This document shows, in pieces, positions 53,635 to 61,093 of a DNA stretch of 64,000 bases. The notes under the pieces are model-generated. The model saw nothing but the letters and a program-made list of their open reading frames with translations. It had not been told where the DNA came from and did no database searches. This DNA comes from Candidatus Nyctobacter psychrophilus (lineage in GTDB: Bacteria; Vulcanimicrobiota; Vulcanimicrobiia; Vulcanimicrobiales; Vulcanimicrobiaceae), in contig JACRTY010000021.1 of NCBI GenBank assembly GCA_014305025.1, forward strand, positions 124,001 through 188,000, in the 5' to 3' direction. Within the stretch, counting starts at the first letter, position 1. Each line of letters opens with the position of its first letter. Position numbers and translations under genes: made by a program.

Positions 53635-54444
53635 TTATGGCGCGATCAGTGCGGCGAAACGCGCCAGGTCGTCGTCGCGGCGCACCCGCAAGCGCGGCAA
53701 GGCGTATGGCCGCTCCAAACCCTCGACGTCGCCGGGCATCTCGGTAAAGGCCGCCCTCATGCCGATCTCGCGCATGACCGACACGGTCGTCGCATCGTAT
53801 TGCCCGGAGGGATACGCGTACGTCGTCGGCGCGGGGCCACCGAGATAGCGCGTGAAGCGTTCCATGCACCCGGCGGCTTCACGTTCCTGACCCGCACGGT
53901 CGAGCTTCGCGAGGTCGAGGTGGAACGTGCCGTGACAGGCGACTTCCATACCGGCGCCACGCAGCGCGCGCATCTGTTGCCAGCTTAGATGATGCGGCGT
54001 GCCGATGAAGCCGCTGGAAACGTAGAACGTGCCGCGCGCACCGTACTCGCGCAGTAGCGGTAACGCCGTGGTTGCCGCGTCATCGTAGCCGTCATCGAAG
54101 GTGAGCACGACGATGTTACGCGGCCGCTCATGGCGGCCCAGCCGCGCAACGAGATCATGTGCGGTGATGGCAGCGATGTGCCGCTCGCGCAGATAGCGCA
54201 ATTGCGCGGCGAACGCACCGGGGGCGATGGTCAGATCGCGGCCGACGGCATCGCGCGGGATGTCGGCATCGACACGGTGGTACATCAGCACGGGAACGCC
54301 GGGCCAATGGCCGGTCATCGCGTGCGTGGCCGAGGTCGCTGCGCGTGGGTGCGTCGGCTCGTCCGCGCCGCCGCAGGCCGTCGAAGACGCGAACGCCAGC
54401 GCGACAGACCAGAGCACGCGGCGTACCGTGAAGCCGGCGCTCAC
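53635..54444 (-). CDS. Polysaccharide deacetylase (NodB/CE4), exported
   Basis: A 269-residue CE4 deacetylase. The N-terminus is a signal peptide with a possible lipobox ('SSTAC', Cys about 24). Motif 1 is 'LTFDDGYDD' near 110-118, with the catalytic and metal Asp. Motif 2 is 'ACHGTFHLDL' near 167-176, with two His ligands. Later motifs are 'YAYPSGQYD' near 210 and 'AAFTEMPGD' near 235. Such enzymes strip acetyl groups from chitin-like, peptidoglycan or exopolysaccharide sugars. The start is GTG, overlapping the TGA of the upstream glycosidase (GTGA), so it is coupled to the phosphodiester-glycosidase genes and probably shares their substrate. Confidence 0.9.
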   Translation of the reverse strand: MSAGFTVRRVLWSVALAFASSTACGGADEPTHPRAATSATHAMTGHWPGVPVLMYHRVDADIPRDAVGRDLTIAPGAFAAQLRYLRERHIAAITAHDLVARLGRHERPRNIVVLTFDDGYDDAATTALPLLREYGARGTFYVSSGFIGTPHHLSWQQMRALRGAGMEVACHGTFHLDLAKLDRAGQEREAAGCMERFTRYLGGPAPTTYAYPSGQYDATTVSVMREIGMRAAFTEMPGDVEGLERPYALPRLRVRRDDDLARFAALIAP

Positions 54445-56420
54445 GGCGTGCCCGCGACCACGACGCTCGGATTACGAAAGCCGAGCGTACCGCGCGCGGG
54501 CGCACTCGCGGCGATTGCCCCCGCAGTGCCGACCGGCGGCACGACGTATAAAGACGAGAGGCGCACCGGCGGGTTGAGATCGGCCGGTACGGCGATCGTG
54601 CGCGTTCGCCAGCCCGTCCAGTCAACGTTCTTCGCGATAGTCAGCGCCCGGCGTTCACCGAACCGATTGACGAACGCAGCACGAACCGTTGCGCCCCCGC
54701 CGTCGCCGTTTACGTCGACCGAGAACTGTAACGGTTCACCCGGCAAAACATAACGCACATCCGCGGTTGCGATCCGGCGTGTGCCCGAGAGATCGTACAC
54801 GAGCGTGAGTTGCGGCTCGAAGAGCGGTAACGCGATCCGCCGGCTTCCGACGTGAAGGGTCATGTCCGTGCGCAGTCCACCTGCGCGTGCGACGATCCGT
54901 GCATCGCGATTGCTCGCGCGATACACGCCCGCTTCGGTAAACGCGCCGCGATCGGCGCTCCACTGCACGCGATTCCCCAGTTGCACGACGGCACCCGACG
55001 CATCGTAGCCCGTCGCGCCAAGATGCACCGTGCCACCCGGGTCGACGGCGCGCTCGTCGTGTTGGATGTCCAGTCGCGCGAGCCGTTCGACCACACGGAT
55101 CGGCACCCGCGCTACCAAGCCGCGCGCGTGCAGCGCGACTTCGCCGGACTCGGGCCCGGCTTGTAGCACTTCACTCGGTGCAGAAGCCAGCAGATGACCG
55201 GCAGCATCGACGACGGCAAGCCGTACCGGAACGCCGGCACCCGACAACGCGACGATCGACGACGGCCGGGCTACGAGCATCGCCGGCGGACCGAGCGGTG
55301 CATCGCTGTACGCGAACAATCCGTCCGCTACGGGCCGCTCTGAGCCGTCGCTTGGCGATCCCAAGACCTTCGGCATCCCGTCGCCGAGTTGGCGCGCGAC
55401 CAGCGTGGCTGAGCCCCCGGAATCGAAGGCCATCGCGTCACTTGCGCCAAGTCCGCGCAACAGCGCCGCAAATTGGGGACGCGTCACCCCGATCGAGGTA
55501 GCGGCGTTACGTCCGTCGACGCTGACGAGAAGCAGCGTCTGCGCTGCCGTCGTTGCTGCGCCGGCAACGGGAAACCGCACGTTACGTTCTTCGGGCGCCG
55601 GCGCATTGGGATCGTCAACGGCGTGTCCGCCCTGGAGCAGCAACGGTCCACCGCCGAGGGCGCTGACGACATCGCTAAGCGGCGGCGTCGTCGTCATGGC
55701 GATCGTCACGCCATCACCCGGCGCAGGGGGCGGCGCGAGGGTCTGCGCCGCCGGACCGAGACCGAGCACGATTCCGTGCGCCGTCTGCGCGTCCGCCGGG
55801 CCGATCGCCGCAACGCGATACGCACCGGCAAGCTCAGCACCGTGAAGCGCATCGGCCGGCACTAGCGTCGCGGCGGTTACGCCGAAGGCCGCGCGCATCG
55901 CCCCGAACGCGGCTCCGAGCACGCTCGCGCCGCCCTGCGGCGGCCACTCGTCGACGCCGGTCAACGGAATGGTCGCTGCACCGTATTCCACCGTTCCGTT
56001 GAAACTGAAGGAATCGAAGTGAACGCTACGGTCGCGGCGTACGTCGAGCGCGACGCGTTGCGAGGGCGTGCGGAGCAACACGCCGTCACGCACCACGATG
56101 TTCAGCGGTTGGTTTGTTTGACCGATGTCGAAGTAGTCGCCGTTGATGCCCGCGACCGCGCCCGTGCGGCGCGCCATCGACGAGACCGTTTCGCCCGCTG
56201 AGATCAAGCGGTCGTGTGAGAGCACGACGCCAAGCCGTACGTTCGGCTCGCCAAGATCGAGGGCGACGACGTTGACGACGAGCGGCCCATCCGACGTGGT
56301 GAGCCGATAGGTAGCACGTCTCATGCCCGGGGCGAAGACTTCCTGCGTACGCGACTGCGCGATGACCAGCGGAAACGGCGCGGGCGGCGCGAGTTCCGCC
56401 GGAAGCGACGGTCCGATCAC
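54441..56420 (-). CDS. Phosphodiester glycosidase-family protein, no signal peptide
   Basis: A 659-residue protein with a NAGPA-type phosphodiester glycosidase domain (Pfam DUF2233 family). Marks are 'AGINGDYFDIGQTNQPLNIV' near 90-109 and 'AMAFDSGGSATLVARQLG' near 330-347. Residues about 380-659 are beta-rich, with an Ig-like segment (about 380-510) and a final sandwich (about 560-640). Human NAGPA removes GlcNAc from a phosphodiester, and bacterial relatives act on wall polymers such as teichoic-like or phospho-sugar links. Oddly, it begins 'MIGPSLPAELAPPAPFPL', proline-rich without any signal peptide, and its GTG overlaps the upstream stop. It may be a domain of the upstream protein lost by a frame change. 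Confidence 0.85.
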   Translation of the reverse strand: MIGPSLPAELAPPAPFPLVIAQSRTQEVFAPGMRRATYRLTTSDGPLVVNVVALDLGEPNVRLGVVLSHDRLISAGETVSSMARRTGAVAGINGDYFDIGQTNQPLNIVVRDGVLLRTPSQRVALDVRRDRSVHFDSFSFNGTVEYGAATIPLTGVDEWPPQGGASVLGAAFGAMRAAFGVTAATLVPADALHGAELAGAYRVAAIGPADAQTAHGIVLGLGPAAQTLAPPPAPGDGVTIAMTTTPPLSDVVSALGGGPLLLQGGHAVDDPNAPAPEERNVRFPVAGAATTAAQTLLLVSVDGRNAATSIGVTRPQFAALLRGLGASDAMAFDSGGSATLVARQLGDGMPKVLGSPSDGSERPVADGLFAYSDAPLGPPAMLVARPSSIVALSGAGVPVRLAVVDAAGHLLASAPSEVLQAGPESGEVALHARGLVARVPIRVVERLARLDIQHDERAVDPGGTVHLGATGYDASGAVVQLGNRVQWSADRGAFTEAGVYRASNRDARIVARAGGLRTDMTLHVGSRRIALPLFEPQLTLVYDLSGTRRIATADVRYVLPGEPLQFSVDVNGDGGGATVRAAFVNRFGERRALTIAKNVDWTGWRTRTIAVPADLNPPVRLSSLYVVPPVGTAGAIAASAPARGTLGFRNPSVVVAGTP

Positions 56421-58471
56421 GGCGACGGACGCGCTTCGGGAACCGGCGTCGGCACCTGCGCGGGTGCGACGACCGCGGGCAACGGCGCACTGCTATAGAG
56501 GAAGAGCCCGTCGGAGACCCAGCGTTCCGCGCTGTTGTCGGACGGTACGTTGCGGACGCTCGCATTGGCGTCGCCCGGCGCGCGCGACACGAGCGTAACG
56601 GAGCCGCCCGAGTCGAGCGCCATCGCGTCGACGCCGCCCAGACGCAACAACAGCCGCGCGAATTCCGGGCGCGTCATGCCGACGGAACGTTCGGGGTGGC
56701 GCCCGTCGACGGCAACGAACATCAAACGCCCGTCGAGCGTACGCACGAGTGCGATCACGGGCCAACGATAATTGCGTTCATCGGGCGCGGGAGCGTGCCG
56801 GTCTTCGAACCATGCACCGTTGCGGAGTAAGACGGGTCCACCGCCGATTCCGGCAACGACGTCGTCGACGTGCGGTTCGAGCGCATAGGTCACCGTCACG
56901 ACGTCGCCCGGCTTCGGCAGCGGCGTGCGCACGAGCGGACCGATGGCAATGCCGAAGCGCGGCGTCGTCGGCGCGTTCATCGGCACGACGTCGGTCACGC
57001 GAAAGCGCGTGCCGTTGCGGTCGCCCAGCGGCTGCAACGCGACGAACGTGCGCCCCGGCGATGCCGGCAACACCTTGCCGAACGCGGGCGTGATCACGCA
57101 CACGTCCCCCGGCGGCCAGTCGTTGACTTCCGTGATCGGCATGCTGCCCGCCGCGGTACGGACTTCGCCGCGGATGCGAAACTCCGCGATCGTGACCTGC
57201 TTGTTACGGTCGATCACCAAAGCCGCGCGGTCGGTCGGCCCGCGCACCAGCTCGCCATGACGCACGAGCATGCCCTGCGGTTGATACGTGCGTCCAATAT
57301 CAAAATAATCGCCGTTGACCCCGGCGACGGCACCCGTGCGCACGCTCATCGCCGAGGTTCGCTCGCCGCCGGAGATCACGTGATCTTCTGCAATCGCCGT
57401 ATCGAAGCGTAGCGTCGGTTCGGCCGGATCGACCGAGAGCAAACTGATGGCCAGCGGACCGTGATCGCTGCCAAGCGCGTATTGGGCGTACGCGAGGCCC
57501 GGAGCCGTCGCTTCAAGCGTGACCGAACGCAAGCGAGGCTCGTCTGCGATATGCGTCAACAAGGCGGTGAGGGCGTTCAAATCACGCACTCCGCCTGCGT
57601 GTTCGCCGAATAGGGCGTGTAGTTCGCCACCGAAGTTGAAGGGGACGCCGTCGAGGGTACCCACGATAGCCCGCGACCCGATGCCGTCTCCAGCGAACGA
57701 AACCTTTCCATGCAGCCCGCGCAGCTCGTGTGGCGCGGTCCCCGCTGCGGCGTCAGCAGCGAGCGCGAGCGACGTATCATCGAGCCGGGCCTGTGCGTGA
57801 ACCGCCGTACCGCCGTCGACCTCGACGTCGCGCAGCCAACCGCCTTGCAACTCCAACGTTGCGTCATCGGGTAGAATCCCGGCCAGCGGTTGCAGCGGCA
57901 CGGCAGCCGCCGTCCACACGCTCGGGCCACCCGCGGCATGGCCTGTAACGGGATACCGGTTTGTCAGCTCGTCCAGCGCCATCGTAACGTCGTAACGTGG
58001 GGGCTGCCCGGCCCTCAGATTGACGTCGGCTTCGACGCCGGCGAAGGTCAGTGCGGGGACGGGGACCGCCCCGGCGGTCACGACCAGCGTACCGTCACGC
58101 ACCGCTAAGCGCGTCGCGCCGCCTGCCAGGGCCAAATGCGTTTCTTCTTGGGCGTGATAGCGAAGCGGCGCCACGACGATGTGCGGCTGCTCGAGCTCGA
58201 TCGTATCGCCGCTTGGGCCCAACGCTACATGGGCGCGAGGGGCGCTGGCAAAGAACGCGCCGTCGCCGGTCGAGGCCGTCATGTCGCGCAAGAGATAGCC
58301 GTCTTTGGTCCGCATCACGTCGCCGGCGCGGAACCGCAAACCCGTCGCGTGATCCGCGTACGCCAGGAAGGCGCAACTCTGGAGCTTGCCTGCGACGGCG
58401 AAACCGGCGGCGAGTGCAACGAGTGCAACGACGCCCACGAGGATCAGGCCACGGCGTCCGGATACCTTCAT
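56417..58471 (-). CDS. Membrane-anchored protein with AsmA-like region and phosphodiester glycosidase domain
   Basis: A 684-residue protein. An N-terminal membrane anchor ('RGLILVGVVALVALAAGFAVAG', about 7-28) is followed by about 300 residues of beta-rich sequence ('MRTKDGYLLRDMTASTGDG' near 53), resembling AsmA/DUF3971-type lipid-binding repeats. Then comes a phosphodiester glycosidase domain (about 360-660) with 'AGVNGDYFDIGRTYQPQG' near 385-402 and 'DAMALDSGGSVTLVSRAPGD' near 625-644. It ends in the proline-rich 'APAQVPTPVPEARPSP'. It is paralogous to the next gene over the glycosidase domain and translationally coupled to it (GTGA). It heads a three-gene run and is divergent from a second deacetylase-like gene, 45 bp away. 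Confidence 0.85.
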   Translation of the reverse strand: MKVSGRRGLILVGVVALVALAAGFAVAGKLQSCAFLAYADHATGLRFRAGDVMRTKDGYLLRDMTASTGDGAFFASAPRAHVALGPSGDTIELEQPHIVVAPLRYHAQEETHLALAGGATRLAVRDGTLVVTAGAVPVPALTFAGVEADVNLRAGQPPRYDVTMALDELTNRYPVTGHAAGGPSVWTAAAVPLQPLAGILPDDATLELQGGWLRDVEVDGGTAVHAQARLDDTSLALAADAAAGTAPHELRGLHGKVSFAGDGIGSRAIVGTLDGVPFNFGGELHALFGEHAGGVRDLNALTALLTHIADEPRLRSVTLEATAPGLAYAQYALGSDHGPLAISLLSVDPAEPTLRFDTAIAEDHVISGGERTSAMSVRTGAVAGVNGDYFDIGRTYQPQGMLVRHGELVRGPTDRAALVIDRNKQVTIAEFRIRGEVRTAAGSMPITEVNDWPPGDVCVITPAFGKVLPASPGRTFVALQPLGDRNGTRFRVTDVVPMNAPTTPRFGIAIGPLVRTPLPKPGDVVTVTYALEPHVDDVVAGIGGGPVLLRNGAWFEDRHAPAPDERNYRWPVIALVRTLDGRLMFVAVDGRHPERSVGMTRPEFARLLLRLGGVDAMALDSGGSVTLVSRAPGDANASVRNVPSDNSAERWVSDGLFLYSSAPLPAVVAPAQVPTPVPEARPSP

Positions 58472-58516: not shown

Positions 58517-59296
58517 ATGCGGGCCCTTCGTTGTCTCATCGCTTGCGTCGCGGCGCTGTGCAGTTCGGTAACCGGGCTACGCGCCACGCCGAGCGGGCTA
58601 CCGCAGATCGCACCGCACGCACGCACGCCCTACATTGCCGTTCTGGTCTGGCACGACGTTCTGCCGTCCAAAGAGGTGTGGTTCGACACGACGGCTGCGC
58701 TCTTCGCGCACGAGCTCGATCAGATCGCAACCGGCGGGTTCCATGTCCTCAAGCTTGCGACGTTACGCGATCATCTCGTGCGCGGCACCGACGTCCCGCC
58801 GAAATCGCTCGTCCTGACGTTCGATGACAACGGGTCCGGCATTTATCGCTACGCGTACCCGCTGCTGCGCGCGCATCGCTTTCCGGCAACGCTCTTCGTG
58901 CACACCAACTACGTCGGTAAGACGACGAGCAAGCACCACAACACGTGGTCCCAACTGCACGAAATGATCGCTAGCGGACGCATCGACGTGCAAAGCCTCA
59001 CCGCCAACCACCCACCCGACCTCACCAAACTGAGCGATGCCGACGTCGTCCACGAGCTGCGCCTCTCGAAATTTTCGCTCGAACGACGCCTGGGGAAACC
59101 GGTCTACGCGCTCGTTTATCCGTACGACGCATACGACGATCGCGTCGCCCGGTTGGCCGCCGACAGCGGCTATACGCTCGGATTTACCGAAGACTGGGGA
59201 GCAGCCGGTGATTCATCGTCGCTGCTGGAGATCCACCGCTACTCGGTCCTCACGCGGTTCGATCAAGCCTTATCGGACGTCGCCGCGCATCGCTGA
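58517..59296 (+). CDS. Polysaccharide deacetylase-like protein with altered active site
   Basis: A 259-residue exported protein with a signal peptide ('CLIACVAALCSSVTGLRA', about 6-23). It follows the NodB layout but with changes: motif 1 reads 'LTFDDNGSG' rather than TFDDG, and the metal-His motif reads 'SLTANHPPDL', where the first His of H-x3-H is Leu. 'VYPYDAYDD' and 'GYTLGFTEDWG' keep the later family pattern. It may be a weak or non-catalytic binder. I start at ATG 58517, because the open frame upstream overlaps the divergent gene. Its start lies 45 bp from the start of the glycosidase gene, so both share a promoter region. Confidence 0.83.
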   Translation: MRALRCLIACVAALCSSVTGLRATPSGLPQIAPHARTPYIAVLVWHDVLPSKEVWFDTTAALFAHELDQIATGGFHVLKLATLRDHLVRGTDVPPKSLVLTFDDNGSGIYRYAYPLLRAHRFPATLFVHTNYVGKTTSKHHNTWSQLHEMIASGRIDVQSLTANHPPDLTKLSDADVVHELRLSKFSLERRLGKPVYALVYPYDAYDDRVARLAADSGYTLGFTEDWGAAGDSSSLLEIHRYSVLTRFDQALSDVAAHR

Positions 59297-60217: not shown

Positions 60218-61036
60218 TCAGCGCCAGCAGGTCAGTGGTCTGGCTATCCCTGCTTTCCCGGTGGGCCGAAGGTGGTATGCGTCTTCGAGGGTGCGTAGCA
60301 CATCGTAGTGATCGATCCGTTCACCGTAGCGCCCAGGCCGTACCATCGGTCCAAACACGATGGTCGGGATGCTGTTGGCGGCATCGTATCCCTCGTCCCA
60401 GGTCAAAACGACGAGCGAGTCATGCGCGTTGGCCCACGTCACCAGCGGGGCGAGGCGCATGCGCAACCATGCGTCACCTTGAGCGATCGTTCCGTCGTGC
60501 ATGTCATCGTCGACGTCCGGAACGACGAATGCCACCGTAGGCAGCAGATCGTACAGAGACGGTAGGGCAGCGAATGCTCGAGCGTCGGCTGCCGGAACGT
60601 TGCTGAACGCGACCCACGGTGCGTGCTTGCGTGCATAGGTTCCGGCGGCGCACACCGGCGACCCGGTTGAGGGAAGCGCCTCGGCATAACCGATGAACGT
60701 TAGGTGCGCAGCGAGGAGTTCGCTCGCGAGGTTCGGCGCGTTCGCTGAGATACCGGTCGCGGGGCAGCCGTCGCCGTTGTCGTTGGTGACGCCGGCGAAC
60801 AAGGCGAGATAGTTCGGCAGGCTGGGGTGCGTCACGCCGTGCGCGTTCGTGAACAAGGCACCTTTTTTTGCGAGCGCATTGATGAAGGGAGCGGACTGGT
60901 TGCCCACGATCTCCGCCAGCGTCTTATTCTCTTCGACGATGACGATCGTATGCGCCGGGCGCGGAACACGCGCCGCCGCCGATACCGGAAATAAGCACGC
61001 GGCGAGCACAACAAACGACAGCACAAGACGCGTCAT
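60218..61036 (-). CDS. Secreted phosphoesterase (acid phosphatase/phospholipase C-like)
   Basis: A 272-residue exported enzyme of the phosphoesterase family (Pfam PF04185). A signal peptide 'LVLSFVVLAACLFPVSAAA' (about 4-22) precedes the opening 'HTIVIVEENKTLAEIVGN', the family's usual start with the metal Glu-Asn. 'THPSLPNYLALFAG' near 68-81 has the probable nucleophile Ser/Thr region, and the distal block is 'VVLTWDEGYD' near 208-217. Relatives hydrolyse phosphomonoesters or phospholipids outside the cell. The ATG at 61036 is chosen because the signal peptide begins there; an upstream start at 61078 is possible. It belongs to the envelope-modifying cluster only by position. Confidence 0.85.
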   Translation of the reverse strand: MTRLVLSFVVLAACLFPVSAAARVPRPAHTIVIVEENKTLAEIVGNQSAPFINALAKKGALFTNAHGVTHPSLPNYLALFAGVTNDNGDGCPATGISANAPNLASELLAAHLTFIGYAEALPSTGSPVCAAGTYARKHAPWVAFSNVPAADARAFAALPSLYDLLPTVAFVVPDVDDDMHDGTIAQGDAWLRMRLAPLVTWANAHDSLVVLTWDEGYDAANSIPTIVFGPMVRPGRYGERIDHYDVLRTLEDAYHLRPTGKAGIARPLTCWR

Positions 61037-61093
61037 CGGCGCGACGTTCGAATGGCAGGCCGCGACCTCCGCTTTCATGGGGAAACGCTTGAG

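Follow-up and report, generated by a model that had tools for sequence, protein, structure and literature searches.

Two adjacent NAGPA-type genes of Candidatus Eremiobacterota, probably translationally coupled, in which the downstream protein lacks a signal peptide

Background

The NAGPA family of phosphodiester glycosidases (PF09992) includes the vertebrate uncovering enzyme NAGPA (6PKx), BACOVA_00430 (3OHG), Burkholderia BPSS2145 (6OZD) and a protein of Synechocystis (5H3K). Two neighbouring genes of an uncultured soil bacterium, here called P1 and P2, encode proteins that share with this family its profile, its predicted fold and its motif residues. They differ from it in that P1 adds an AsmA/TamB-like, membrane-anchored region, while P2 adds C-terminal beta-sandwich domains and has no signal peptide.

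In hitchhiker export, for example that of hydrogenases, the Tat signal on the small subunit also exports the large subunit, which lacks a signal peptide. P2 is likewise devoid of a signal peptide and encoded beside an exported partner, P1, but here no cofactor protein is involved, the P1-P2 complex is putative, and P1 has no conserved twin-arginine motif. Tat hitchhiking via P1 was considered and rejected, the RR of the P1 studied here (GRRGLI) being absent from its relatives.

Short gene overlaps couple translation and are enriched among the subunits of heteromeric complexes (PMC10666635), and the termination-reinitiation site proposed below at the GTGA draws on this paper and on PMC6728339. 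P1 and P2 resemble known termination-reinitiation pairs (ATGA/GTGA, TGATG) in their overlaps of -4 and -1 nt and in the conserved start at the stop; they differ from them in that coupling accompanies the absence of a signal peptide on the downstream protein. A text search of PMC10666635 found no mention of signal peptides, and a narrow literature search found no paper on signal peptide loss linked to coupling.

Organization of the locus

The window, i.e. the whole stretch of 64,000 nucleotides that was analysed, is part of G000:C51 in a 3.2-Mb draft genome. Its relevant features, with P1 and P2 taken from the listing of open reading frames, are as follows.

53635..54444, minus strand: CE4 polysaccharide deacetylase (PF01522), 269 aa, overlapping P2
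54441..56420, minus strand: P2, 659 aa, GTG start
56417..56420, minus strand: GTGA overlap of the P1 TGA stop and the P2 GTG start, proposed termination-reinitiation site (junction comparison; PMC6728339, PMC10666635)
56417..58471, minus strand: P1, 684 aa, ATG start
58517..59296, plus strand: second CE4 polysaccharide deacetylase, divergent from P1, a neighbour kept in relatives
60218..61078, minus strand: phosphoesterase-family protein (PF04185), adjoining the pair locus in most relatives
P1, about aa 8-30: N-terminal transmembrane helix
P1, about aa 44-290: AsmA/TamB-like beta region (sequence matches and AlphaFold model)
P1, about aa 313-665: NAGPA phosphodiester-glycosidase domain (PF09992 profile)
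P1, C-terminus: Pro-rich tail, TPVPEARPSP
P2, aa 19-375: NAGPA phosphodiester glycosidase domain (PF09992 profile)
P2, aa 378-656: Ig-like/beta-sandwich domains (AlphaFold model)

Both of the NAGPA-type reading frames sharing a GTGA that an earlier note on this DNA had described are found at these coordinates, with P2 in the -1 frame, and the coupling to a CE4 gene that it had claimed is borne out: a second GTGA overlap (54441-54444) joins the end of P2 to the CE4 deacetylase, whose N-terminus bears a signal of its own that includes a lipobox-like SSTAC, and the link to CE4 is kept in relatives, the order CE4< P1> P2> CE4> being conserved. For the divergent CE4 gene we chose the start at 58517 (MRALRCLIACVAALCSS..., a signal peptide) over the mechanical ORF start at 58136.

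Domains of the two proteins

The NAGPA profile matches both P1 (91.3 bits) and P2 (83.6 bits) well above its curated cut-off of 25, with E-values of 1e-25 and 2.5e-23 for the two catalytic domains; NCBIfam holds no family for either protein. The conserved motif residues (NGDYF, GGGP, VDGR, DxGGS) are intact in both, as are the 25 catalytic-domain positions that were checked, here and in almost all relatives. Judged from sequence, P1 and P2 thus carry an intact predicted NAGPA active site, and their substrate would presumably be a glycan phosphodiester.

The AlphaFold2 model of P2 (pLDDT 89) has the NAGPA domain followed by beta-sandwich domains, so that profile and model agree with the second NAGPA domain and Ig-like regions previously assigned to P2. 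Of the architecture previously given for P1, the transmembrane helix, the NAGPA domain and the Pro-rich tail stand, while the AsmA-like region goes unnamed by Pfam (no AsmA/TamB profile matched P1, and only NAGPA appeared at E up to 0.1) and is weakly indicated by sequence and model. For the first 301 residues of P1, matches were found in P1 relatives and, at a weak level, in long proteins of the same family (open frames of 1510-1774 aa), of which the two that were scanned both have a Pfam TamB match. The AlphaFold2 model of P1 (pLDDT 83) begins with a helix (5-43) and is then all-beta to 285, and Foldseek matched it to the NAGPA structures 5H3K, 6OZD, 3OHG and 6PKx and weakly to the N-terminus of Atg2 (prob 0.95, E 0.014). 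We propose that P1 sits in the inner membrane via its N-terminal helix.

Two genes rather than one

We compared 99 genomes of the family and 117 of the class; the relatives identified by name are mostly Candidatus Eremiobacterota MAGs. P1 was observed in 17 genomes, every one within the window's family, and the P1-P2 pair in 13 genomes from 11 genera of this one family of Ca. Eremiobacterota (the window, L033, L035-L040, L060 and L072-L075). In these paired loci P2 comes directly after P1, together with CE4 genes and usually also the phosphoesterase gene. Since the arrangement recurs in so many genomes and genera, it is beyond chance. The four genomes in which no P2 adjoins P1 are G020, G005 and G089, where the two genes lie on separate contigs, and G014 (L064), where P2 is gone and P1 overlaps the CE4 gene directly by GTGA. 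The G014 locus looks as if P2 had been excised from GTGA to GTGA, and the tail of P1 (PEARPTP) is retained. Nearly every genome of the family has a P2-type protein, in most cases encoded by a lone gene that is typically flanked on one side by a YncE-like propeller gene and on the other by two genes resembling TldD and TldE (named from sequence); the order YncE-like propeller, P2, TldD-like, TldE-like is conserved in such lone loci (e.g. L041, L045).

The earlier note had suggested that P2 may be a frame-split domain of P1, and had listed a real split pair, programmed frameshifting and an assembly error as the options. As the genome is a draft in 58 contigs, an assembly or sequencing error at 56410-56425 might in principle have broken one gene in two; however, the arrangement, including a start codon that coincides with the stop or lies close to it, is found in 12 further genomes, and this recurrence refutes the error, whose probability we take to be practically nil. 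Nor is P2 a split-off part of P1, for the NAGPA domains of the two proteins fall into separate clades in the tree (support 100/99), and in most relatives P2 stands alone, usually with a signal peptide.

The junctions of the 13 pairs are GTGA in eight cases, TAGTG in two, and TGA-CCC-ATG (L040), TAG-GTAGCAC-GTG and a 107-nt insert before ATG (L037) in one each. Relative to P1, P2 is in the -1 frame in 10 of the 13, including all GTGA and TAGTG junctions, in frame 0 in L040 and L037, and in frame +1 in L060. Except for the 107-nt insert, the start codon overlaps the P1 stop or lies no more than about 10 nt from it (12/13). As background, a G precedes TGA at 47 of 154 uncoupled stops and TG follows any stop in 22 of 441 uncoupled cases; we give no joint probability, as the pairs share ancestry. 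The L037 insert is missing from L075 of the same genus; the L037 contig contains N, and its genome (G018) is listed with 7% contamination.

A different way to join the two frames would be recoding, by a -1 shift at the overlap or by readthrough of the stop, which would yield one anchored protein of 1343 residues with two NAGPA domains and a Pro-rich linker, where P2 rides on P1 and needs no signal peptide. This would account for the absent signal peptide, the Pro-rich tail of P1 and the -1 frame of the ten pairs, and it is consistent with G005, in which P2 lies elsewhere with a signal peptide of its own and P1 has no Pro-rich tail. Against it stand the pairs in frame 0 and +1, the start codon that every pair retains at the stop or close to it (beyond the insert in L037), and the printed junctions, where no slippery heptamer was seen by eye at the overlap. 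Moreover, the P1 of G014 retains its tail although P2 was lost, so that the tail is not a mere fusion linker, and no fused single gene was found in the 99 family or 117 class genomes; a long frame in G028 (1451 aa) that was considered as such a fusion contains an in-frame TGA, then CCC ATG. The predicted length of about 1340 residues is arithmetically correct (684 + 659 = 1343), but the sum is no evidence of fusion, because every GTGA pair could be "fused" in this way. We therefore regard recoding as very unlikely. Because the start codon is kept and the frame is not, termination-reinitiation is favoured over frameshifting, and among the options listed previously it is the real split pair that fits the variable frame and the 13 recurrent pairs. 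The proposed best reading of these sequences is of two proteins made by termination-reinitiation; that P1 and P2 are two separate proteins we consider highly probable, and we infer that they are translationally coupled in vivo.

The missing signal peptide

The absence of a signal peptide from P2, noticed before in the window, is real and conserved, as hydropathy and inspection revealed none in any of the 13 paired P2; it is the interesting part of the system. Paired P2 begin 11-15 residues ahead of a conserved PFP motif with nothing upstream, and lone P2 have a hydrophobic leader followed by a mature start of the form LPxxLxPPxPFP. The P2 of the window begins at the mature N-terminus of its signal peptide-bearing homologues (LPAELAPPAPFP). 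A hidden upstream start was rejected for it: the frame is open for only 24 codons upstream of the GTG, and these contain no ATG, GTG or TTG and no hydrophobic stretch. The 34 lone P2 that were scored bear a signal peptide or a similar leader, and among intact lone P2 of the family the only one without a signal peptide is that of G020. Mean N-terminal peak hydropathy is 1.48 in paired P2 vs 2.70 in a sample of 13 signal peptide-bearing lone P2. Borderline cases were decided by eye: L035, L043 and L069 have short hydrophobic starts that were not taken as signal peptides, and L053, L054 and L082 have short leaders that were.

Several lone P2 (e.g. L045, L053, L054) overlap or almost touch the upstream gene but retain their signal peptide, so coupling alone is insufficient for its loss. 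Conversely, the P2 of G020 (L043) has none although it lies in a lone-P2 locus with its own Shine-Dalgarno sequence and no coupled upstream gene, so that the absence does not strictly require coupling. This L043 protein, whose P1 is on another contig, has a long branch and intact catalytic-motif residues.

In genus g6 (G005, G089), where P2 is separated from P1, it has a signal peptide, and in the tree these P2 fall inside the paired clade (94/87). This suggests, from the tree, that the signal peptide was regained in g6, and does no more than suggest it, since a topology with all paired P2 in one clade passes the AU test (p = 0.09). In L082 (G089) a TGATG joins the stop codon of a gene for a TRAP-transporter-like membrane protein to the start of P2, whose short signal peptide-like leader reads MLPALLLSALA.

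Where P2 may act

A composition classifier (246 proteins from these loci, grouped-CV AUC 0.88), whose exported labels derive from our own signal-peptide rule, gave a median P(exported) of 0.95 for paired P2, all of them on the exported side, and 0.88 for lone P2. Cysteines per 1000 aa amount to 0.38 in paired P2 (three in total over the 13 proteins), 2.8 in lone P2 and 0.68 in P1; low cysteine is weak on its own, as exported neighbours can be Cys-rich. Given the intact active site and this exported-type composition, we modestly favour a P2 that acts outside the cytoplasm, probably as a partner of P1 or in complex with it.

A P2 without a signal peptide should remain in the cytosol, and one may consider that it turned cytoplasmic in the paired lineages, so that the two proteins would serve one pathway from opposite sides of the membrane, P1 from the periplasmic side and P2 from the cytosolic one. 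No paired P2 bears a signal peptide, and G020 shows that such a form is possible in the absence of a coupled upstream gene; the exported-type composition could also be inherited and slow to change. A cytosolic P2 is nonetheless at odds with that composition, with the near-zero cysteine content and retained Ig-like/beta-sandwich C-terminus, with the signal peptide of the G005 P2 that lies apart from P1, and with the exported type of the lone enzymes, and we consider it unlikely.

In the reading that we prefer, P1 and P2 would be distinct cell-envelope proteins of the NAGPA fold that diverged anciently, and a single mRNA would yield both of them, along with the CE4 deacetylase, through termination-reinitiation at the GTGA. 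The helix would anchor P1 in the inner membrane and leave its AsmA-like and NAGPA regions outside. P2 would descend from an ordinary secreted enzyme whose signal peptide is absent where an exported partner is encoded in coupling with it, and would still act outside, most likely alongside P1. Taken as a whole (separate proteins, probable coupling and a P2 that probably continues to act outside), we hold this statement to be fairly probable. A more specific idea, that P2 is exported free of a signal peptide by being translated right after the exported P1, is decidedly doubtful; the ribosome finishing P1 at the translocon might restart on P2 there, or P2 might bind nascent P1 and be carried along.

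A signal peptide that is absent beside an exported neighbour over 11 genera and present after relocation constitutes a natural experiment on protein export. If P2 is outside, this would point to coupled or piggy-back export, and if inside, to an enzyme that changed compartment. A comparable case is another family, f2, in four genomes of which (L069, L070, L160, L161) P2 has no signal peptide and overlaps by GTGA a propeller gene that encodes a different exported protein; this recurrence with a YncE-like propeller upstream would make coupled export, if true, a general route. The f2 P2 have His in place of Arg304 of the VDGR motif, and seem about 100 residues short after query position 120.
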